Shown here piece by piece: positions 1,204 to 19,195 of a stretch of DNA of 21,546 nt. The position numbers and the translations under genes were made by a program. This stretch comes from a virus. Numbering within the stretch: the stretch's first letter is position 1; the number at the start of each line of letters is the position of its first letter. A model generated the notes under the pieces. That model saw only the letters and a program-made list of their open reading frames with translations. It was not told the DNA's origin and did no database searches. The stretch is taken from positions 1-21,546 of IMG/VR virus record IMGVR_UViG_3300038305_000112; one strand, written 5' to 3'.

Positions 1204-2457
1204 TTAATACCCTGCGTATTTATCTAAGTATTCGTAGTCTTCCTGTTCATAGTCATAAGCATAGGAAACTTTAGCTAACTGGTCTATATATGCTAGTGAA
1301 TCTATTAAATCATCGTGGACTAGTGGGTTGGGGAATTGAAATAACTCATCAAGAAACTGACTGTTCCAATCTCCTTTGTTTAATGTAATGTTACCATGCT
1401 CAAAGCGGCCTTGTAAAGCCCATACTATCCTATCTATTTTCTTTTTGTTACCATGAGTAAGTTCTTCAATCCTAAAAAACCTTTGATTCTTTTTCATTTC
1501 ATTATTAAGGTAAGGGTAGACCGCATTCTTAAGTGCGCCTTTTTCTATTCCTACTGCTACTGGTCTGTAGTCTCTGACTGCTTCAAAGATTCTTCTGGCG
1601 GTCTCTTCAACACCCCACCTCCCATGTATGATATTAGCAACCCACCATCCTTTCGTACCTGCCTTAACCACAGAAATTGCCGTTTGGTCAAGCCTTTTGG
1701 TTTTGGTTGTGACCTTAGAAACTTCAGCAAATCCTGCCAAATCGACAGCAATGTAAAAGTCACCACCTTCAGGCTCCTCTGTATCAAACTTAACATTTTC
1801 TTCCTTAAAGAGTTCACTATCATTTGCTTCAAAGGAAGCCATAAACTCCTGTCTGAAGGAAAAGGAAGACATTGATTTCTTAGCCGCTTCAATCTCTTCA
1901 GGGTCTAGCAATGGGTTATCATAGCTTGTAAAATGAAAACCTGCAAAACTAGGATCATCAGATACACAAGCGTATGTATATAGTTCATAAAAGTGATTAC
2001 GTCCCATAGGCGTACCTATAAACAACGCATCACCCTTTTGGTCAGCCAAGGCAGGTCTCAGTATCTGCTCCCAAACCTCTGGCTTCATGTCAGCGTACTC
2101 ATCCATTACTAGGAACTTAAGGCTGACACCCCTCATTGTCTCTGGTCTATCCGCACCCTTTAGGGCAATTACAGCACCATTAATGAGTTTAATCTGTAGG
2201 TTATTAACGTGGCTAGAGGCTATGACGTTATGTCCTAACTCTAGTAGCATCTGCCACATAATGTCCCTAGCCTGTCCCTGTGTAGGGGCAACGTAGAACA
2301 CATGGCCTTTGGTATCACTAAGGGCGCGGAGTATTAACATCCATGCCGCTAGTCTACTCTTACCTGTACGTCTACCTGCGGCTATAACTTTAAATCTTGT
2401 TTCGTTGTTATATACTTTCTGTTGCCACGGTAGAAGAGAGACATTTAAATCAGTCAA
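1204..2457 (-). CDS. terL: Terminase large subunit (TTG start)
   Basis: This is the ATP-driven packaging motor and headful or end-cutting nuclease. The N-terminal ATPase has a Walker A motif AGRRTGKS at residues 27-34 and a Walker B FLVMDE ending in D119-E120. The C-terminal RNase H-like nuclease shows AVDLAG with D239, GIEKG with E305 and HDDLIDSLAY with D382, D383 and D386. At 417 residues it is short but within the range of podovirus large terminases. The start is TTG at 2457: no in-frame ATG lies upstream before a stop, and AAGGA sits 5 nt before the TTG. The start overlaps the stop of the upstream gene by 8 bp, which suggests translational coupling. The portal gene follows 2 nt after its stop. 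Confidence 0.95.
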   Translation of the reverse strand: MTDLNVSLLPWQQKVYNNETRFKVIAAGRRTGKSRLAAWMLILRALSDTKGHVFYVAPTQGQARDIMWQMLLELGHNVIASSHVNNLQIKLINGAVIALKGADRPETMRGVSLKFLVMDEYADMKPEVWEQILRPALADQKGDALFIGTPMGRNHFYELYTYACVSDDPSFAGFHFTSYDNPLLDPEEIEAAKKSMSSFSFRQEFMASFEANDSELFKEENVKFDTEEPEGGDFYIAVDLAGFAEVSKVTTKTKRLDQTAISVVKAGTKGWWVANIIHGRWGVEETARRIFEAVRDYRPVAVGIEKGALKNAVYPYLNNEMKKNQRFFRIEELTHGNKKKIDRIVWALQGRFEHGNITLNKGDWNSQFLDELFQFPNPLVHDDLIDSLAYIDQLAKVSYAYDYEQEDYEYLDKYAGY

Positions 2458-3247
2458 GGGATTCCTTAAACGTCTTAGCTGTTTTAGCTTTTTCTTCTTT
2501 TAGTTTGTCGTTAAAATCTGTCGTTATAAATTTTTTAAACATATTATTCATTGGGTACTTTTCATTACTATTGTTTTTTACACCGTATAGGTTTTCTAAG
2601 TGCCAACTATATTTTGTTTTTAATAGCTCCTGTAAATCAGCTTTATCTCTTGTACTAGGGTTTTTCTTTTTATTTCGGTTGATAATATCGCTAGCTTTGT
2701 TATAAAACATTGCCGCTTCTTTTTTCTTTTCTTTAGACCCTGTTTTTATTTGTCGTTTAGAAGACCTTAAAATATCGTCTCTTATAAAATCTAACGCTTT
2801 TGACCAGTCTGTTTTATTCATAGCAGTAGCAAGGTCTATTATTCTGTTTGCTGTTTCTGTTGAAGCATCTGTTCCTTCCTGATGTCTATACTCATGCGCC
2901 CATAAATTCGCGGTGGCGGCTTTATCTATAGCATTAACTGTGTTTGCTTCTTTTGGTATAGAAATTAAACTATTGTCTTGTGCTTCGAAAACATAAGGTC
3001 TGTCGCTTCCCTGTTCTCCAACCGAAAAACCTTTTAAAGTTAAGCTATTCCTTCCTATTTGTTCAGGAGTAAGTCCGTGATACCTTGCAAGACTAGGGTC
3101 AAGAGTGCCTTTATAATTAGAGTAAGGAGCAATAGCCATTTGAAAATCTATATCACCCATCTGCATTCCCTGCAAGACATTTTTATAGTCTAGTCCGTTT
3201 TCTTGAGATATGCGTTTTGCTTTCTGCTCTAAAGTTTCTCTGGACAT
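2450..3247 (-). CDS. Putative HExxH zinc-metalloprotease-like protein
   Basis: A 265-residue protein not recognised as a named family. The informative element is LWAHEYRHQEG, which places H118-E119-Y120-R121-H122 in an HExxH arrangement, the zinc-binding and catalytic motif of zincin metallopeptidases. E131 in the following helix-like segment is a possible third ligand. The C-terminal half is Lys-rich (KEKKKEAAMFY, NRNKKKN, DKLKEEKAKTAK) and probably helical. There is no signal peptide or membrane segment. It lies between the probable endolysin and the large terminase, starting 1 nt after the endolysin stop with only a weak ribosome binding site, so it is probably translated by coupling. It could act in virion maturation, wall digestion during entry, or late host modification; the sequence does not decide between these. 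The motif is seen directly; protease activity is inferred. Confidence 0.55.
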   Translation of the reverse strand: MSRETLEQKAKRISQENGLDYKNVLQGMQMGDIDFQMAIAPYSNYKGTLDPSLARYHGLTPEQIGRNSLTLKGFSVGEQGSDRPYVFEAQDNSLISIPKEANTVNAIDKAATANLWAHEYRHQEGTDASTETANRIIDLATAMNKTDWSKALDFIRDDILRSSKRQIKTGSKEKKKEAAMFYNKASDIINRNKKKNPSTRDKADLQELLKTKYSWHLENLYGVKNNSNEKYPMNNMFKKFITTDFNDKLKEEKAKTAKTFKESLD

Positions 3248-3248
3248 A

Positions 3249-3626
3249 TTAATAGCACCACATTACAGGAGACTCACCAACGTCCAACTTGCGGATGTCA
3301 ACATGGACAAAGCTGTCAGCAACTCCGATACCGTTGAACCCCATCGCAGTGGCGTGTTTAACGATGTCATACCTTTGCTGAGAATTCTCAGTCCTGATGT
3401 CACAGGCGATACCTTGTGCGTGAGTTCCTGCAACTTTTTTCTTAGCCTCTATGGGGTGACTAGGGTCTCTGTAACCACTAGTGATTATAAACGGAAAACC
3501 ACATACATAACGTAGGTGATCTAATTTGATTAGGAATTGATCATCAATCTTATTCTTACCTGTGTACTGACAGGCAAACTCTTCCCTGTTAAAGTGTCTT
3601 AACATATCGTTAATGTTATTAATCAT
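3249..3626 (-). CDS. Peptidase M15-type protein, probable endolysin
   Basis: A 125-residue protein of the M15/VanY-like zinc peptidase fold, which cuts D-amino-acid peptide bonds in peptidoglycan and is common as a phage endolysin. Visible landmarks are the N-terminal F-REEFAC segment, ITSGYRDPSHP, then GTHAQGIACDI with H69 and D76, and FVHVDIR with H108 and D110; H69, D76 and H108 are the expected zinc ligands. The ATG at 3626 is preferred because GGAG lies 9 nt upstream. A TTG two codons earlier (3632) would put that site only 3 nt away. The gene overlaps the preceding probable small terminase by 8 bp. There is no signal peptide, so a holin or other export route would be needed; no holin is visible next to it. 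Confidence 0.85.
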   Translation of the reverse strand: MINNINDMLRHFNREEFACQYTGKNKIDDQFLIKLDHLRYVCGFPFIITSGYRDPSHPIEAKKKVAGTHAQGIACDIRTENSQQRYDIVKHATAMGFNGIGVADSFVHVDIRKLDVGESPVMWCY

Positions 3627-4029
3627 TGACAACTTCTCCCTCTAATGGGTCTTGCTGTTCATTACCAGAGATAACAGTGGTTTCACCACCTACTCCAGTG
3701 ATAGAGATGTTGATAGCACTACGACCACCACTACCTCCTTTCTCCTTCTCAAAGTAACTGATAGGTAACATCCTATCCATTACCAACTTCCATGCCGCTG
3801 ACTGATTCTTATGATCGTTGTCAAGAGCCGCATCAAAGATTGCATCCATCACTTTGCGTGACTTTGGGGACGCAAGCATCCTAGCTTTATAGTCGTTGAT
3901 GATTGAAGCATCACCTTTGGGGCGACCTACCCCTTTTCTATTACCTGTTGTTTTAGACACTACAGATTTCTTTGGTGGCCGACCCTTCCGCTTCGCGGCT
4001 GTGGCTGACCTATCTATTTCTTTACTCAA
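3619..4029 (-). CDS. Probable terminase small subunit with AT-hook-like N-terminus
   Basis: First gene of the leftward late block, 136 residues. The N-terminus has two AT-hook-like basic motifs, KRKGRPPKK and GVGRPKGD, suited to minor-groove DNA binding. The middle is helical (SRKVMDAIFDAALDNDHKNQ, then AAWKLVMDRMLP), and the C-terminus has a Gly-rich strand segment GRSAINISITGVGG. Size, DNA-binding tail and position upstream of the large terminase suggest the small subunit that recognises the packaging site; this is inference from context. The start is TTG at 4029, supported by AGGGG 6 nt upstream. The leftward promoter at 4171-4199 would give it a leader of about 135 nt carrying CTTAAG repeats. 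Confidence 0.55.
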   Translation of the reverse strand: MSKEIDRSATAAKRKGRPPKKSVVSKTTGNRKGVGRPKGDASIINDYKARMLASPKSRKVMDAIFDAALDNDHKNQSAAWKLVMDRMLPISYFEKEKGGSGGRSAINISITGVGGETTVISGNEQQDPLEGEVVND

Positions 4030-4047: not shown

Positions 4048-4345
4048 CTTAAGGATACTTAAGTAGAGTTTAGTTATTTTCTTTAATTATTAATAAAAGT
4101 AAAATACTATAGTTTACTTAAGGTACTTAAGGCGCGGATGGTTTCCTTTAACTAACTTAGTATACTTGATATTATAGCACAGATCAGTCTAAAAGTCAAG
4201 CATTATTTTCTATATTTACTAAATTATATTGAGTACACCCAAGCCCCCTTGTGTGTCAACCTGTGTGTCCCTTAACTGCTTGTGTCAATACCAAAGGGCC
4301 ACCTGTGTTTTCCTTATGTAATTCAAGGACTTAGGTATACTTAAG
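4048..4345. repeat. Cluster of CTTAAG-centred repeats, possible operator or iterons
   Basis: The palindrome CTTAAG, usually inside TACTTAAGG, occurs at 4048-4053, 4058-4063, 4117-4122, 4126-4131 and 4340-4345. The first two copies are 10 bp apart and the next two 9 bp apart, about one helical turn. A degenerate version surrounds 4155-4169 (CTTAGTATACTTG), over the leftward -10 region. Another copy, at 7533-7538, lies upstream of the ssDNA-binding protein gene. Placement in the late promoter and its leader suggests a binding site for a regulator or replication protein. The hexamer also occurs inside coding regions, so only the clustering is meaningful. Confidence 0.5.
4171..4199 (-). promoter_or_regulatory. 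Leftward sigma70-type promoter for the late block
   Basis: On the minus strand TTGACT (4199-4194) is followed by a 17-bp spacer and TATAAT (4176-4171): a full consensus -10, five of six matches at -35 and optimal spacing. Transcription would begin near 4164 and run into the probable small terminase gene about 135 nt downstream. It shares the contexts GCTTGACT and CTATAATA with the rightward promoter at 4811-4838, so both should be read by the same host sigma factor. Confidence 0.75.
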
Positions 4346-4415
4346 GATACACCCCCTTTTTCCTAATTTACTCCTTTTTTGTATGCCAGAGGGTACTGTA
4401 ACAATCCTGCGATTG

Positions 4416-4435
4416 CCCCACGCCCCCCCGCCCCC
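4416..4435. other. C-rich/G-rich tract beside the DnaA boxes
   Basis: The plus strand has runs of 4 C (4416-4419), 7 C (4423-4429) and 5 C (4431-4435) separated by 1-3 bases, ending 4 bp before the first DnaA box. The minus strand therefore has G5, G7 and G4 runs and could form a G-quadruplex if the G7 run supplies two tracts. A GC-rich block between DnaA boxes and the unwinding element is also known in some bacterial oriC regions. Confidence 0.6.
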
Positions 4436-4437
4436 AA

Positions 4438-4512
4438 AGTTATCCACAGGTTATACATGAGTTATCCCCAGTATCCACGGCCTGTGCATAAGTTATCCAC
4501 AGGTTATACACA
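4438..4512. other. DnaA-box cluster, candidate replication origin
   Basis: Four perfect matches to the DnaA box TTATNCACA occur in 73 bp: TTATCCACA at 4440-4448 and 4493-4501, TTATACACA at 4504-4512, and TTATGCACA on the minus strand at 4483-4491. Degenerate copies are TTATACATG (4451-4459), TTATCCCCA (4462-4470) and GTATCCACG (4471-4479). Forward boxes start at 4440, 4451 and 4462, and again at 4493 and 4504, so each step is 11 bp. A 20-bp direct repeat is present at 4438-4457 and 4491-4510, 53 bp apart, close to five helical turns. The cluster lies between two divergent promoters and near AT-rich DNA. Binding of host DnaA is the natural reading; origin function is inferred. Confidence 0.75.
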
Positions 4513-4810
4513 AGGCTCCATGTTGGCACGGGTATTGCATGGGTAAAGTGTGAGTATGCCATAGGATACCTATAGAGCCACATGCATACATCATGCCAAG
4601 TAACCATAAGTTTATATTATGATAGACACAAGATCATCATTGATAGTTATATGTTTATAGATGGCTCTGTATTGCGTTCTAAGCGTGTTTGTCCTTGGTC
4701 TATATAATGGCATAGGTAAGTAGTCGATCGTACAAATTAGGCCACAGCCCAGTAGTGGCGCGGTGTTCAGCCTATCTATAAAATAAGTTAAAATAAATGT
4801 ATATAATTGC

Positions 4811-4838
4811 TTGACTCATACACTTATACGCCTATAAT
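4811..4838 (+). promoter_or_regulatory. Rightward sigma70-type promoter for the early/replication block
   Basis: TTGACT (4811-4816), a 16-bp spacer and TATAAT (4833-4838) form a near-consensus promoter. Initiation is expected at about 4844-4846, giving a leader of about 315 nt before the first early gene at 5162. AT-rich DNA directly upstream (about 4770-4810) could act as an UP-like element. It matches the leftward promoter in both hexamers and their immediate flanks. Confidence 0.78.
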
Positions 4839-4844
4839 AGGCAC

Positions 4845-5161
4845 AGGCAACGGGGGAACGGCTCCCCAGATTGATACCTAGCTTCAGCAGTTACCACGGT
4901 AGCTTATAGGCTGAAGACGAAGGAGAAAGTCCCTGAAGCCCTCCGCAATAGCGGTTTGAACTCTCAGCTTATTAGCCGTGGCAATAGTGAGACAGACGAC
5001 CATACTAGGTGGACAGAGTAACCAAGATTAAAAATGGTTATGGCGGGAAGTAGCTTTAGGGCGAAGGTGTACCGTTAAGCAGTACCATATTTAATCGGCG
5101 GTTATTCACTGGAAATACTAGACAACTGGTGTTTGCATTGAATAACTAAAGGTATTTCAAA
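4845..5161 (+). ncRNA. Candidate structured leader RNA of the early operon
   Basis: This untranslated stretch between the promoter and the first early gene can form several helices. They are GGGGA/TCCCC (4853-4857 with 4863-4867) near the 5' end; CCGC/GCGG with loop AATA (4943-4954); TCTCA/TGAGA (4962-4966 with 4988-4992); TAACCA/TGGTTA (5019-5024 with 5035-5040); and GTTATTCA/TGAATAAC (5101-5108 with 5139-5146), which ends just before the ribosome binding site of the gene at 5162. GCTTCAGC at 4881-4888 can pair with GCTGAAG at 4910-4916 or with CTGAAGC at 4933-4939, but not both. It matches no RNA family I recognise. It could be a regulatory leader, a stable 5' structure or a replication primer. 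Helices are visible in the sequence; folding and function are not shown. Confidence 0.45.
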
Positions 5162-5587
5162 ATGAAGAAAACAAACAAGATAAAACACTTTAAGCATTCA
5201 TATTCAGAGTTATCTAAAGTGGGTGTTAAATATTACAAGGATACAAACTTTTGTACAGTTATTGGCTTAGCTGTAGCATGTGACCTGTCATTCGGTAAGG
5301 CTAGGGCAATCGCAGAGCGTACAGTTAAAAGAGTTAAGGGTCGCGGTCTTTCACAGTGGGACATTCATAAACTCTATCAGTCAATGGGTAAACAACTAAC
5401 CCATGTTCCTAATGTTTACGGTGCTACACTGGGAACCGTAGCCAACCATGCCCCAATGTCAGGTCGTTATATGTTCTTAACTAGAAGCCACTGTGCTGTT
5501 AGCCGTGATGGAGTCCTTGAGGATTGGAGTGCGAAAGGTAGTAGACATAGAGTAAGGATGTGTTATAAAATTGAAGACTTAAAGTAG
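5162..5587 (+). CDS. Putative papain-like cysteine-peptidase-fold early protein
   Basis: First gene of the rightward block, 141 residues. The arrangement resembles small phage proteins with a papain-like fold: C31 at the start of a helix after YYKDTNFC, H110 in FLTRSHCAVSRDG and D121-W122 in LEDWS, spaced as a Cys-His-Asp triad would be. The middle is basic (ERTVKRVKGRGLS). It could be an inactive or active protease, or an acyltransferase-like early host-takeover protein; the fold call rests on these three positions only. The ATG at 5162 has AAAGG 9 nt upstream, and the last leader hairpin (5101-5146) lies directly before that site, so its translation may depend on leader folding. Confidence 0.45.
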   Translation: MKKTNKIKHFKHSYSELSKVGVKYYKDTNFCTVIGLAVACDLSFGKARAIAERTVKRVKGRGLSQWDIHKLYQSMGKQLTHVPNVYGATLGTVANHAPMSGRYMFLTRSHCAVSRDGVLEDWSAKGSRHRVRMCYKIEDLK

Positions 5588-7951: not shown

Positions 7952-9571
7952 ATGACATCCTCGTTTGTCCGACATGAGCCATGCCCCAAGTGTGGCTCAA
8001 AGGATAACTTGGCGAGGTACTCCGATGGTCACGCCACCTGTTTTTCAGGTGGTTGTGACTACTACGAGAAAGGTAACGGTCAGGTTATAGAACAAGCAAC
8101 ACAAAGAAAAGCGAGGCATTTGGAAATGACAGGAACAGTAGCGGCAATCCCCGATAGGAGAATAAGCCAAGAGGTGGCTAAGAAGTACGGAGTCACCGTT
8201 GAGTTTGCCCCTGATGGGAAGGTCAGTAAACATCACTACCCATACCACGACAAGGACTCAGGTGCAGTGTTAGGCACTAAGGTACGCATTGTGGACAACA
8301 AGAACTTTTATGCTACAGGAGAATTTAATAATGTTGGGTTGTTCGGTCAACAGGCTTTCAAGGGTGGCGGTAAGTACATTACGGTCACAGAGGGCGAGGC
8401 AGACGCACTTGCAGTTCACGAAATGTTTGACGGAAAGTGGCCTGTTGTCTCCATTAGAAGTGGCTCAAGCGGAGCATCAAAAGACATTAAAGAAAACCTT
8501 GAGTGGTTAGAGTCCTTTGAAAACGTAGTCATTTGTTTTGATGCAGATAAAGCAGGACAGTTGGCGGCTAAGTCTGTCCTTGATTTGTTCACCCCTAACA
8601 AGGCAAAGAATGTCGTATTGTCCATGAAGGACGCAGGGGATATGCTCAAGGCTAACAAGGTCACAGCCTTTGTTCGTGAGTGGTGGAACGCTAAGTCATA
8701 TCAGCCTGATGGAATCATTGCAGGTAATGAGACTTGGGATTTAATCATCAAGCAATCCGATGTCAAGTCCATACCCTATCCTTGGGCTTGTCTGAATGAG
8801 TACACCTATGGCTTCCGTCCGCGTGAGTTAGTCACAATCACTAGTGGTAGCGGCATGGGTAAGTCTCAGATGGTACGTGAGTTAGAGCATTACTTGCTAG
8901 GTGCTACGGAGGACAACATAGGCATCCTAGCGTTGGAAGAGGACATACCTAAGACAGCATTAGGCATCATGTCCATTGAAGCTGAGAAGCAACTACATCT
9001 TAACCAGACTATCTCTGAGGAAGAGAAGAAGAGTTATTGGGATAAGACGTTAGGCTCTGGCCGAATCTATATGTTTGATCACTGGGGTTCTACTAATGAG
9101 GACAACCTACTTGGGCGCATACGTTATATGGCTAAAGGGTTGGACTGCAAGTGGATCATCCTTGATCACCTTAGCATTGTGGTTAGCGATCAGGACAATG
9201 GGGACGAGCGTAAAGCCATCGACAGCATTATGACTAACCTTAGAAAGCTAGTTCAAGAGACAGGTGTAGGGCTATTCCTAGTATCACACTTGCGTAGACC
9301 TAGCGGCTCAAAGGCGCATGAAGATGGCGGTAAGATTAGTTTGGGAGAACTACGTGGTTCAGCGGCTATTGCACAGCTAAGTGATATGGTCATTGGACTT
9401 GAACGAGATCAGCAACACGCTGACCCTGAGACACGGAACACCACAACAGTTCGTGTACTCAAGAACAGATTTGTTGGACTCACTGGTGCGGCTTGTTACC
9501 TTTACTATGATAAAGAGACAGGTCGGATGATTGAAACTAGTTGCCCTATGGGTGAAGAATCGGAGTTTTAA
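7952..9571 (+). CDS. Bifunctional primase-helicase, T7 gp4-like
   Basis: This protein unwinds the fork and lays down primers. Residues 11-35 form the zinc-binding domain (C11, C14, C30, C35) that reads the priming site. The Toprim primase core has TEGEAD with E147 and VICFDADKAG with D197 and D199. The C-terminal RecA-like helicase has Walker A GSGMGKS with K304, Walker B WIILDH with D405, then LVSHLRRPSG and a GELRGSAAIAQLSD motif typical of DnaB/gp4 helicases. Length (539) is close to T7 gp4 (566). All key residues are present. It follows the SSB gene without a gap and is followed 1 nt later by a small gene. Confidence 0.95.
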   Translation: MTSSFVRHEPCPKCGSKDNLARYSDGHATCFSGGCDYYEKGNGQVIEQATQRKARHLEMTGTVAAIPDRRISQEVAKKYGVTVEFAPDGKVSKHHYPYHDKDSGAVLGTKVRIVDNKNFYATGEFNNVGLFGQQAFKGGGKYITVTEGEADALAVHEMFDGKWPVVSIRSGSSGASKDIKENLEWLESFENVVICFDADKAGQLAAKSVLDLFTPNKAKNVVLSMKDAGDMLKANKVTAFVREWWNAKSYQPDGIIAGNETWDLIIKQSDVKSIPYPWACLNEYTYGFRPRELVTITSGSGMGKSQMVRELEHYLLGATEDNIGILALEEDIPKTALGIMSIEAEKQLHLNQTISEEEKKSYWDKTLGSGRIYMFDHWGSTNEDNLLGRIRYMAKGLDCKWIILDHLSIVVSDQDNGDERKAIDSIMTNLRKLVQETGVGLFLVSHLRRPSGSKAHEDGGKISLGELRGSAAIAQLSDMVIGLERDQQHADPETRNTTTVRVLKNRFVGLTGAACYLYYDKETGRMIETSCPMGEESEF

Positions 9572-9875: not shown

Positions 9876-11605
9876 TGAAACAGTTTGTACTTGACATTGA
9901 AGCCAATGGGCTTGACCCTGATACAGTATGGTGTATTGTTGTGCGACAGATAGGACACGATGATTCCTTAACTTGGTCGGGAGATAGACTACCTGAATTT
10001 ATAACTTGGTTACAACTACAGGACGAGTGCGAACTAATTGGTCACAACCTTATAGGATATGATATACCTGTACTGGAGAAACTACTAGCGGTAGACTTTA
10101 GCAAGTGTAAAATAACTGACACACTGGTAATGTCCCGACTAGCTAATCCGTCAAGAGAGGGTGGTCATTCCTTAGATAACTGGGGTTCTATACTTAATTG
10201 CCCCAAAGGAGATCATAATGTTTGGGATGTTTTTTCGTATGATATGTTGGAGTATTGCATACAGGACGTTAGAGTTAATGCGTTGGTGTACCAGAGATTA
10301 CTTTCTGAGCTTAGAGGCTTTGAGTCTGAAAGTATTGATCTTGAGCATCAAGTACAAAGCATTGTTACTCAGCAGATTAAACAGGGGTGGCTCTTAGACC
10401 AAGAGAAAGCTTATCATTTACTGGCTACATTAAAGGAGAAAAAGAACGACCTTGAAGATGAAGTGCATCAGGTTTTCAAACCGTTACCGACATTTGTCAA
10501 AGAGATTACGCCCAAGTTTAAGAAGGATGGTACGCAATCGGTTGTTGGACTCAAGTTTCTTGGTGATAACTGGGAGGAAGCGGTAGCACCCTTTAGTCGC
10601 ATAGATTTCCCTGTGTTTAATCTAGGTTCAAGACAGCAGATAGGTAGACACCTACAGTATTATGGGTGGAAGCCTAAGCAATTCACTGAGACAGGACAGG
10701 CCATCGTTGATGAGGCAGTGCTAGGTACAGTGAAGGGCATACCACAGGCCGCTTTGATAGCTGAGTATCTTATGATACAGAAGCGTGTGGCTCAGGTTCA
10801 GAGTTGGTTAGAGGCTGTTAAAGAGGACGGTAGAGTACATGGCTACGTTAATCCTAACGGAGCAGTGACAGGACGTATGACTCATTCCAGTCCTAACATG
10901 GGACAAGTACCTGCGGTTTACTCACCGTATGGTAAGGAGTGCAGGGACGTATGGACAGTACCAGAAGGTTACAAACTTGTAGGCATGGACGCAAGCGGTC
11001 TTGAGTTACGGATGCTTGCACATTACATGAATGACGAGGGCTATACAAATGAAATTCTCACAGGAGATATTCACACGGCAAATCAGTTGGCTAGCGGCCT
11101 TGAAACTAGAGATCAAGCAAAGACTTTCATATACGCTTTCCTTTATGGGGCAGGAGATGCCAAGATCGGAAGTATCGTTGGAGGAACTGCAAAGGATGGT
11201 AAACGACTTAAGGAAAAGTTCCTTGGCAATACGCCTTCTCTTGGAAGACTACGAGAACGAGTTGCAGTGGCATCTGGAAGAGGTTATGTTCTTGGATTGG
11301 ATGGGCGAAGGGTCTATGTACGGTCACAACACGCGGCACTGAACACTTTGTTGCAGTCCGCAGGGGCTATTGTTATGAAGAAAGCCTTGTGTTTGTTGGA
11401 TGAGTACGCAACTAAGTGGAACATTAACTATAACTTTATAGGAAACATACACGATGAAATCCAGACAGAGGTTAGAGAAGAGAAATCAGAGGTTTTCGGA
11501 AGACTTGCAACCAGTTGTGTCGAAGCCGCAGGAATCCACTACAAACTTAACTGCCCCCTCGCAGGGGAGTTTAAAGTTGGAGATAGTTGGGCGGACACCC
11601 ACTAG
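9875..11605 (+). CDS. Family A DNA polymerase with 3'-5' exonuclease, T7-like
   Basis: This is the replicative polymerase. The N-terminal proofreading domain shows DIEANGL (D7, E9), HNLIGYD (D63) and YCIQDV (D131), so the exonuclease looks intact. The polymerase domain has TGRMTHSSPNMGQVP, motif A GMDASGLELR (D372), motif B RDQAKTFIYAFLYGAG (R412, K416, Y420, Y424) and motif C IHDEIQ (H526, D527). At 576 residues it is about 130 shorter than T7 polymerase, so the thioredoxin-binding insertion is probably absent. The residue equivalent to E. coli Pol I Phe762 is Tyr420. The last 29 bp overlap the next gene, whose ribosome binding site lies within the coding sequence here. Confidence 0.96.
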   Translation: MKQFVLDIEANGLDPDTVWCIVVRQIGHDDSLTWSGDRLPEFITWLQLQDECELIGHNLIGYDIPVLEKLLAVDFSKCKITDTLVMSRLANPSREGGHSLDNWGSILNCPKGDHNVWDVFSYDMLEYCIQDVRVNALVYQRLLSELRGFESESIDLEHQVQSIVTQQIKQGWLLDQEKAYHLLATLKEKKNDLEDEVHQVFKPLPTFVKEITPKFKKDGTQSVVGLKFLGDNWEEAVAPFSRIDFPVFNLGSRQQIGRHLQYYGWKPKQFTETGQAIVDEAVLGTVKGIPQAALIAEYLMIQKRVAQVQSWLEAVKEDGRVHGYVNPNGAVTGRMTHSSPNMGQVPAVYSPYGKECRDVWTVPEGYKLVGMDASGLELRMLAHYMNDEGYTNEILTGDIHTANQLASGLETRDQAKTFIYAFLYGAGDAKIGSIVGGTAKDGKRLKEKFLGNTPSLGRLRERVAVASGRGYVLGLDGRRVYVRSQHAALNTLLQSAGAIVMKKALCLLDEYATKWNINYNFIGNIHDEIQTEVREEKSEVFGRLATSCVEAAGIHYKLNCPLAGEFKVGDSWADTH

Positions 11606-12113
11606 AGATTGTATTGATTGTGGTACAGGGCTTGTTCTGGGAGAGAACTGGACAGAAGCTAGGGATAGACAGGGTAAGTATGTTTGTAAACCTTGTTGGC
11701 ATATGAGAGACTCTCAACGTATGTGGGTTAATGGTAAACATATTTCCAAGTCACACCCCCTGTACAAAGCAGGGAGATACAAAGGGTTTGAGGAAGCGGC
11801 CTTTAGTTCCTTGGAGAACTACAAGGAGAGTGCGGAAGGTGAGGTATACATTATCACCAACAAAGCTTGGGATGGTTGGGTCAAAGTAGGCATGGCTGTG
11901 GATGCGGAGGACAGGCTAAAAAACTATCAAACCTCTTCCCCTTTCAGAGATTATGTGTTATACTATAGTTATAAGACTGATGATAGACGTAAGGCTGAAT
12001 CTACAGCCCACTCAAAACTAGAGCAGTTGTTTGAAAGGAATAACGAGTGGTTCAAATGTACACCACAGGAAGCCAAAGGGGTTTTACATGAACAACAACA
12101 AGACAACGGATAA
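11577..12113 (+). CDS. Zinc-ribbon plus GIY-YIG/T5orf172-like nuclease (TTG start)
   Basis: With a TTG start at 11577 the product has 178 residues. C12, C15, C37 and C40 form a zinc ribbon (CIDCG, then VCKPC). From about residue 88 it resembles the T5orf172/GIY-YIG nuclease group: EVYIITNKAWDGWVKVGMA, a following RLKNYQTSSPF, AESTAHSKL with E141, and NEWF near the end. An ATG at 11454 would put 41 more codons inside the polymerase motif C region. The TTG has GGGGAG 7 nt upstream and is preferred. It might be a homing-type endonuclease, or a nuclease acting on host DNA or branched DNA. Catalytic status cannot be settled here. Confidence 0.7.
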   Translation: MEIVGRTPTRDCIDCGTGLVLGENWTEARDRQGKYVCKPCWHMRDSQRMWVNGKHISKSHPLYKAGRYKGFEEAAFSSLENYKESAEGEVYIITNKAWDGWVKVGMAVDAEDRLKNYQTSSPFRDYVLYYSYKTDDRRKAESTAHSKLEQLFERNNEWFKCTPQEAKGVLHEQQQDNG

Positions 12114-17798: not shown

Positions 17799-19195
17799 TA
17801 TTTTGCCACCGTGTAATCACCGTTGTTAAGCCTAATAGTTATTAATTTACCAATATTTTTTCTAGCTTCTAAATTAACTAAAGCTTTTTGTTCCTTAGTG
17901 GGTTTCCAATTAGGATTATTAGATGTTTTTTTCATTTCCTCAAGCCGATCTTTAACTATTTCTTGTTTAATCTGTTCAACTGTCATCCCTTTACCTTTTT
18001 TAGTAAGAAACACTGGCCCTTTGCCTTTATTAGGTAAGTAAAGCTGACTAAATAAATTAAAGTTTTCTTTAACAGTTTCAAAATTAGATACAACTGTTTC
18101 CGTTTTATCTAAAGGGTCTACATCTATTGTAAAACCGCTAGTTCTTGGAAAATCTTCAGTGTATTTTCTCCAAGCACTGTCAAAGCCAGTTAAAGATTGT
18201 GTTTCCTCTAGCCACGCTCTTTGAGCTTCTGATCTGTTTAAATCAGACTCTAAACTAGCCTCTAAAAAGTTTACAAGTGCTTGAGCTTGGTTTGATGTTT
18301 GGCTAGGATTAGCGGTGTTTTTTGTTATTTCAGTGTTTTCTAAATTAGAAATAGCTCCTTTTTGAGCTTCTAATAATAATGCTTTAAGTCTTTTAGACAG
18401 CGAGTTGTAAGTCAATGTAGCATCTACTGTAGGGTCTAAAGTTCCTACATCAAGCCCTGCTTTACTGCCTATACTGTATAAAGTTTGGTTTATAGTTGCC
18501 AGTGGAACAGACCCTGTTCCAAAGTCTACTTCATTTGACAGTTCTTTCATTTGAGTTACAATAGGAGCATACTGTGAATAACGATCCACTGCTTTTTTTC
18601 CTGTATCTGCTATGCGTTTCACATCTGCTTCGTATAGCGATTTTTTTGTAAATAAATCAAATTCTTCTTTTGGACTAAGAATTACTTTTTTAGGAGGTTG
18701 TTCAGGTTGTGCTAGATTAGTCAATATTTTAATACCTCCTTCTAAGGCAATAGTACTTCCTGAGCCTTGTTCAGCAATAATAGCCTCTGCTACTTTAGCA
18801 TAACCTAGTTTACGTACCTGTTCTGCAATACCTTGCCTTCTTTCATAAGAAGAATCTAATTTTGCTTCTGATGCATCCCTTTGTCTCTTCTGTTGAGCAA
18901 AGGCCGCCACTAACTTAGGTGTTTGAGCAGGATTAATTGAATTGACAAGCTGAAGTATCTTAGGTTGGTCGTTTGGATCGTTTATGTCCAAGTTTGCCAT
19001 CATAGCCTGTGCTTTCTCAGCAGTAGTTCTAGTGTCTGAGCCTGTCATTGCGCCTATGCCTCTGCGTAAACCTGTTGCAAACTTTTGTCCTTGTTGCAAC
19101 ATACGCTGTTCATAGGTGGACGGAATAGCCGCTTGTGCCTGTGGTTGTAATAGCTGAGAAGTCAGCATACCTTGTAAATCTGTTGGGTTAGCCAT
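17798..19195 (-). CDS. Helical virion-associated protein, unknown function
   Basis: A 465-residue protein, Ala- and Gln-rich and mainly helical. The N-terminus (LTSQLLQPQAQAAIPSTYEQ, then LRRGIGAMTGSD) and segments such as AKVAEAIIAEQG and KRLKALLLEAQKGAISNLE suggest amphipathic helices; a basic segment KGKGPVFLTKKGKGM lies near the C-terminus. No family is recognised. Size and place between two other large late proteins suggest a structural or DNA-ejection component. Start ATG 19195 has GGAGG 9 nt upstream, inside the end of the preceding gene. Confidence 0.5.
   Translation of the reverse strand: MANPTDLQGMLTSQLLQPQAQAAIPSTYEQRMLQQGQKFATGLRRGIGAMTGSDTRTTAEKAQAMMANLDINDPNDQPKILQLVNSINPAQTPKLVAAFAQQKRQRDASEAKLDSSYERRQGIAEQVRKLGYAKVAEAIIAEQGSGSTIALEGGIKILTNLAQPEQPPKKVILSPKEEFDLFTKKSLYEADVKRIADTGKKAVDRYSQYAPIVTQMKELSNEVDFGTGSVPLATINQTLYSIGSKAGLDVGTLDPTVDATLTYNSLSKRLKALLLEAQKGAISNLENTEITKNTANPSQTSNQAQALVNFLEASLESDLNRSEAQRAWLEETQSLTGFDSAWRKYTEDFPRTSGFTIDVDPLDKTETVVSNFETVKENFNLFSQLYLPNKGKGPVFLTKKGKGMTVEQIKQEIVKDRLEEMKKTSNNPNWKPTKEQKALVNLEARKNIGKLITIRLNNGDYTVAK

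Follow-up and report, generated by a model that had tools for sequence, protein, structure and literature searches.

The primary origin of bacteriophage T7 relies on promoters of the phage's own RNA polymerase, and it is this enzyme which opens the origin. To our knowledge, it has not been settled how DNA synthesis starts in phages that have a T7-type replisome but lack such a polymerase. Iteron plasmid origins of the RK2 and P1 oriR type combine a direct-repeat array with DnaA boxes in a small origin region. The DnaA oligomerisation region of the E. coli oriC is built of strong boxes that anchor rows of weak ones head-to-tail (PMC4285127). DnaA boxes are already known from phage genomes: they have served to predict origins in individual phages (PMC11512268), and in a survey of alphaproteobacterial phages for sites of cell-cycle factors, DnaA sites were found without positional asymmetry (PMC9437464). 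The locus described here has the 9-mer consensus and the strong-and-weak arrangement of oriC, but its array is shorter, is not directly adjoined by an evident AT-rich unwinding element, and lies upstream of a T7-type helicase instead of DnaB with DnaC. As in the iteron plasmids, repeats and DnaA boxes occur in a small region, although no Rep gene was recognised in the phage and DnaA boxes and other repeats seem to be alternatives, not co-residents. With T7, whose whole genome holds a single exact DnaA box, it has in common the downstream genes for a T7-like single-stranded DNA-binding protein (SSB), primase-helicase and polymerase, but not the reliance on phage RNA polymerase promoters. What seems to be new is a conserved, phased array beside sigma54-type sites in an uncultivated phage group, together with its cassette-like turnover.

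The window, i.e. the whole stretch of DNA analysed, spans the 21,546 bases of a virus record. It belongs to a group of uncultivated phages, mostly from marine sources, that have a T7-type replisome and whose longest contigs in this comparison measure 31-38 kb. Genes for portal, large terminase (terL), endolysin and a terS-like protein lie on the minus strand; beyond a divergent gap of 1.1 kb, the plus strand encodes a gp2.5-like SSB, a gp4-type primase-helicase, a family A polymerase, a Cas4-like exonuclease, endonuclease I and a class II ribonucleotide reductase. The array is located in this gap, at the junction between packaging and replication genes. At least 600 IMG/VR sequences are related to the large terminase, the top 80 of them with 77-89% identity, whereas isolates reach just about 25-43%; the replisome genes are closest to those of the Pelagibacter phages HTVC103P and HTVC115P (about 50%). 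Aligning terL to 84,980 species genomes named no host; apart from distant relatives, only contigs of metagenome-assembled genomes of unrelated taxa were matched, labelled Sphingobacteriales, Verrucomicrobiales, Acidimicrobiaceae, Euryarchaeota (an archaeon) and Crocinitomicaceae (L379-L383), which are probably mis-binned viral contigs. Between terL and the endolysin gene, the window carries a gene for 265 amino acids (2450-3247, minus strand) without PHROG match that is present in 5 of the 81 sequences compared; because of this rare gene, the distance from terL to the junction exceeds that of most relatives. A T5orf172/MUG113 (GIY-YIG-like) gene at 11454-12113 on the plus strand overlaps the end of the polymerase gene.

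Within 73 bp, the array contains four exact and three weaker DnaA boxes, six of the seven in forward orientation (Table 1), and the remainder of the window has a single additional exact match, at 18573. The DnaA-box array is real and far above chance: none of 1500 Markov-1 random windows had three or more exact boxes in any 75-bp stretch, the maximum being two. The four perfect boxes (three forward, one reverse) and three degenerate ones of the preliminary description, and its judgement that such a cluster is very unlikely by chance, are thereby confirmed, and two details need correction. Its direct repeat with an offset of 53 bp is 21 bp long and not 20 bp (AAGTTATCCACAGGTTATACA, at 4437 and 4490). 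Its forward boxes stepping by 11 bp hold for the exact boxes at a single step, 4493 to 4504; the ladder emerges when the weak boxes are included (4440, 4451, 4462, 4493, 4504, with 4471 off register) and is clear across relatives.

Table 1. Features at and around the divergent junction (positions in the window)
Feature	Position	Strand	Remarks
terS-like small gene	3619..4029	-	left of junction; anchor for comparing relatives; no family match, putative assignment from position
Predicted strong sigma70-type promoter, TTGACT-17-TATAAT (extended -10)	4171..4199	-	towards terS-like gene; in most of 108 junctions
Left 16-bp element	4381..4396	+	GTATGCCAGAGGGTAC, then GTAACAATC; kept in boxed and box-less relatives
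C-rich tract (other strand G-rich)	4416..4435		left cassette border; conserved in boxed and many box-less relatives
DnaA-box array	4440..4512	+	exact (TTATNCACA): 4440-4448(+), 4483-4491(-), 4493-4501(+), 4504-4512(+); one mismatch: 4462-4470(+); two mismatches: 4451-4459(+) (TTATACATG), 4471-4479(+) (GTATCCACG); position shared with 46 of 108 relatives
Perfect sigma54-type (-24/-12) promoter-like site	4523..4539	+	TTGGCACG-GGTA-TTGCA; about 10 bp from last box
Right 16-bp element	4554..4569	+	GTATGCCATAGGATAC; degenerate direct repeat of left element
Predicted sigma70-type promoter, TTGACT-16-TATAAT	4811..4838	+	towards structured RNA and early genes
Structured RNA candidate	4853..5156	+	upstream of gene at 5162; neighbour of the array (about 340 bp away), not implied to belong to it
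T7 gp4-type primase-helicase	7952..9571	+	part of phage replisome

For comparison, 108 distinct junctions were anchored on the terS-like gene. Two to seven exact boxes are present in 46 of them, one in 3 and none in 59, proportions that differ from unbiased frequencies in that part of the set was retrieved via the conserved left element. The expectation that the same array would be found at the same place in related phages was thus borne out for 46 junctions, where the boxes mostly lie about 300-600 bp upstream of terS, and not for the 59 without exact boxes. Across 23 contigs and the window, the junctions hold 42 exact boxes in 14.4 kb and the remaining 763 kb hold 30, a 74-fold difference in density. 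Weak boxes are over-represented at offsets of -22, -11, +11 and +22 from the exact ones (at +/-11, the mean is 4.7-4.8 matches out of 8, where the background is 1.85), and 73 of 138 neighbouring box pairs are exactly 11 bp apart, a count that leaves out spacings of 1-2 bp, which stem from truncated loci. Strong and weak boxes thus stand in helical register, as in an oriC-type origin. In most boxed genomes with a sigma54-type site, the rows place boxes about 20, 31, 42, 53, 64, 75, 86 and 97 bp ahead of that site.

In a phylogeny of the packaging proteins built with FastTree, the state of the array changes 12 times, compared with about 33 times (minimum 26) for shuffled labels; the array is therefore inherited, yet labile. 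Loss of the boxes from near relatives whose neighbouring genes are retained had been named in the preliminary description as evidence against its proposal, and such differences do in part occur: the sister pairs L037/L039 and L043/L036, whose packaging proteins are 98.9% and 98.6% identical, respectively, differ in the array. Both pairs are near-identical up to about the C-rich tract and diverge from the array onward; L036 has apparent decayed boxes, and its next gene closely matches that of L043 again. Many boxed and box-less genomes have common flanks, which are the GTATNCCNGNGGGTAC element with GTAACAATC and the C-rich tract on the left and the GTATGCYANNGGATAC element on the right. In L185, L213 and their relatives, the place of the DnaA boxes, about 260-400 bp upstream of terS, is taken by direct repeats of the AACAGTTAGACTTAGG type, four to five in number and spaced by about 31 bp. 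L157-L163 have four to nine TTGGCATGG...TTGC units 29 bp apart at the array position and no DnaA boxes; these units match the sigma54-type pattern considered below, and the tandem copies could be iterons instead of promoters. Altogether, direct repeats other than DnaA boxes are present in 4-9 copies in about 20 box-less junctions (null almost never above 2). Counted as 13-mers, repeats at this fixed place, a hallmark of iterons, reach at least three copies in all boxed junctions and 3-9 in many box-less ones, with null counts of mostly 1-2. Since sisters differ, other repeats replace the boxes and the flanks are kept, we read the segment as an exchangeable cassette and the array as one of several apparently interchangeable repeat cassettes at this place. 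The small early genes gave no informative family match, so that a Rep initiator may be among them.

Neither a DnaA protein nor a T7-type RNA polymerase was found in related contigs. The DnaA C-terminal domain was absent from about two dozen related records (the control was detected in 10 genomes). A tblastn search of the window and 23 related contigs, in which the T7 and P-SSP7 polymerases as controls detect each other at 26% identity, gave no T7-type RNA polymerase, and neither did Pfam (PF00940) in the window and nine related contigs, where T7, P-SSP7 and P483 as controls were positive. The earlier remark that no such polymerase is in view, made for the window, therefore holds for related contigs of 13.5-38 kb too; as most of these have no completeness certification, the absence of the polymerase from the group is well supported by these searches, short of proof.

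A synthetic DnaA array used as query, at a lenient E-value limit of 10, matched many phage records. Several lytic phage isolates have clusters of four to seven exact boxes, which lie for the most part in non-coding gaps and in some cases at the genome ends or next to them: the Berlinviruses P483 (KP090453) and A7 (MK685668), the SP6-like ZK1 (OK625527), the Lactococcus 949-type phage WRP3 (KM677185), Limnohabitans phage DC31 (PQ492658) and Vibrio phage BD1 (PV244424). The comparison with the array described here was made on the boxes, and in contrast to our group, Escherichia phage P483 encodes a T7 RNA polymerase (Pfam) along with its five exact boxes, and BD1 has its own RNA polymerase by annotation. 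The preliminary description had rightly attributed a T7-like replisome to the phage, as SSB, primase-helicase and polymerase genes are present, but the contrast it drew with T7, which implied that a phage with its own polymerase would have no array, does not hold: P483 has both, and arrays lie at the two genome ends of the SP6-like ZK1. Lack of a polymerase is therefore not a general reason for such arrays, and a role at genome ends or in titration has to be kept in view. Tandem exact boxes are absent from the isolates with the nearest replisomes (HTVC103P, HTVC115P, HTVC134P, CRP-125, CRP-804, CHOED, MQM1 and Slicky01), from CRP-13, which has a similar portal, and from the terminase relative MW202722.

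The likeliest single explanation, to which we assign a probability of about 0.45 and thus somewhat less than even odds, is that the array, within an exchangeable cassette for the origin or its control, forms an oriC-like platform for DnaA and serves a DnaA-dependent step of replication. Host DnaA would bind the exact boxes and then fill the weak ones, and the DnaA oligomer on the 11-bp ladder would help to open neighbouring DNA. If it works like T7 gp4, the phage primase-helicase needs single-stranded DNA and no loader and could then enter the opened DNA, after which phage polymerase and SSB would take over. We infer all of these steps, from DnaA binding and DNA opening to helicase entry and a replication start at the array, from the location of the array, its oriC-like grammar, the apparent absence of a T7-type RNA polymerase and the replacement of the boxes by what look like other iterons. 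Against a function as origin speaks that there is no evident AT-rich element directly beside the boxes. The neighbouring DNA is C-rich, the least stable 50-bp segments, which are close to promoters, lie at 4071-4120 (about 320 bp to the left) and 4772-4821 (about 260 bp to the right), and some 60 bp to the left of the array there is a T-rich stretch that is conserved. A minimum of GC skew near 4500 was discarded as origin marker, for it is confounded by the switch of gene orientation at the same place. With 59 of 108 junctions box-less and 12 gains or losses on the tree, the array is not essential to the group.

A wider proposal, which is speculative and on balance doubtful, is that this widespread T7-replisome group swapped RNA polymerase-driven initiation for an exchangeable initiator cassette, in which host DnaA, other iterons or tandem sigma54-type sites would start replication at one spot and tie phage copying to host replication or growth control, with close relatives exchanging cassettes. 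The turnover also suggests that selection acts on the coupling of these marine viruses to the replication control of their hosts. The conserved phased array at a divergent junction, together with natural array-less sisters, allows for a direct test of the initiation question, and the array in P483, a phage with its own RNA polymerase, makes this question testable in E. coli.

Alternatively, DnaA on the array might act on the adjacent sigma54-type promoter and perhaps on the divergent sigma70 promoters, so that early transcription would follow the DnaA level or growth state of the host; we consider this possible, though not probable. The predicted site next to the array is the only one in the window that conforms to the strict pattern TGGCAYR-N4-TTGCW with invariant GG and GC, and it starts 20 bp past the start of the last box, as in most boxed relatives. 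Junctions contain 22 strict sites in 28.6 kb, as against 7 in 746 kb elsewhere, an enrichment of about 80-fold, and sigma54-type sites co-occur with boxes (35 of 46 boxed versus 13 of 62 other junctions; Fisher p about 2e-8, relatedness ignored). However, the phase is not strict, with distances of 18, 26, 28 or 40 bp in some relatives, 11 boxed junctions have no strict site, and tandem sites in 3-9 copies (L002, L024 and L157-L163) include the box-less loci of L157-L163 mentioned above. Moreover, sigma54 requires its own AAA+ activator, and the phage genes include no sigma54 activator domain; since one from the host would do, a functional sigma54 promoter is still conceivable. We know of no case in which DnaA acts as a sigma54 activator. 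The sigma70-type promoters are about 240 bp (left) and 300 bp (right) away from the array, which weakens the earlier suggestion that DnaA switches these two promoters; the sigma54-type site so close to the last box reopens that suggestion in another form.

Unlikely, in our view, is a role as a DnaA sink, by which multiplying phage DNA would titrate host DnaA in a datA-like manner and stop re-initiation in the host or alter DnaA-controlled host genes. Clustered strong and weak boxes would each bind several DnaA molecules, and the mioC region titrates about eight of them (PMC5835720). Arrays in phages with their own RNA polymerase, and gain and loss between sisters as expected of a helpful but dispensable trait, are consistent with titration, which would need, however, neither a constant position nor a replacement by other repeats at that position. 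About as unlikely is that the junction holds the phage ends or a packaging signal at which the array would act, like the repeats near T7-type ends. The junction is immediately upstream of terS, there is a slight excess of contig ends 350-460 bp ahead of that gene, and the arrays of ZK1 are at both ends of its record and those of A7 and P483 beside the end region; on the other hand, contig ends vary base by base, and many contigs of 31-38 kb cross the junction and break at various places. A cohesive end at the C-rich tract was rejected since contig ends do not fall on one base. That the boxes are sites of a phage-encoded or other protein and resemble DnaA boxes by chance is very unlikely: other repeat families do occupy the position in relatives and the DnaA assignment is made from sequence, but the boxes have the exact DnaA consensus, and the weak variants follow the 11-bp spacing that DnaA arrays typically show.

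To the right of the array, the gene at 5162 is preceded by the candidate structured RNA and this, in turn, by the plus-strand sigma70-type promoter. The RNA, which is also seen in L014, L140, L145 and L393-L417, shows strong covariation: a model of its first half has 33 matches (27 distinct), in which 97.8% of cells pair and two-sided changes are seen at 22 of 38 pairs, a value reached by no shuffle and compared with 3-7 pairs for slid versions, in an alignment which, being fitted to the model, favours the structure. An earlier alignment of eight sequences showed two-sided changes at 32 of 90 pairs. An Rfam search with the window and the RNA gave no credible family. The end of the RNA is predicted to pair with the sequence immediately ahead of the start codon, which suggests a possible role as a cis-regulatory leader. 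A relative of the protein encoded at 5162 is present downstream in all 31 contigs found by the RNA sequence, mostly about 275-350 nt past the motif. This gene (5162-5587, plus strand) encodes a 141-amino-acid protein of the family phrog_3754 (function not annotated), in seven members of which Cys31, His110 and Asp121 are invariant, a pattern that would fit a papain-like fold.
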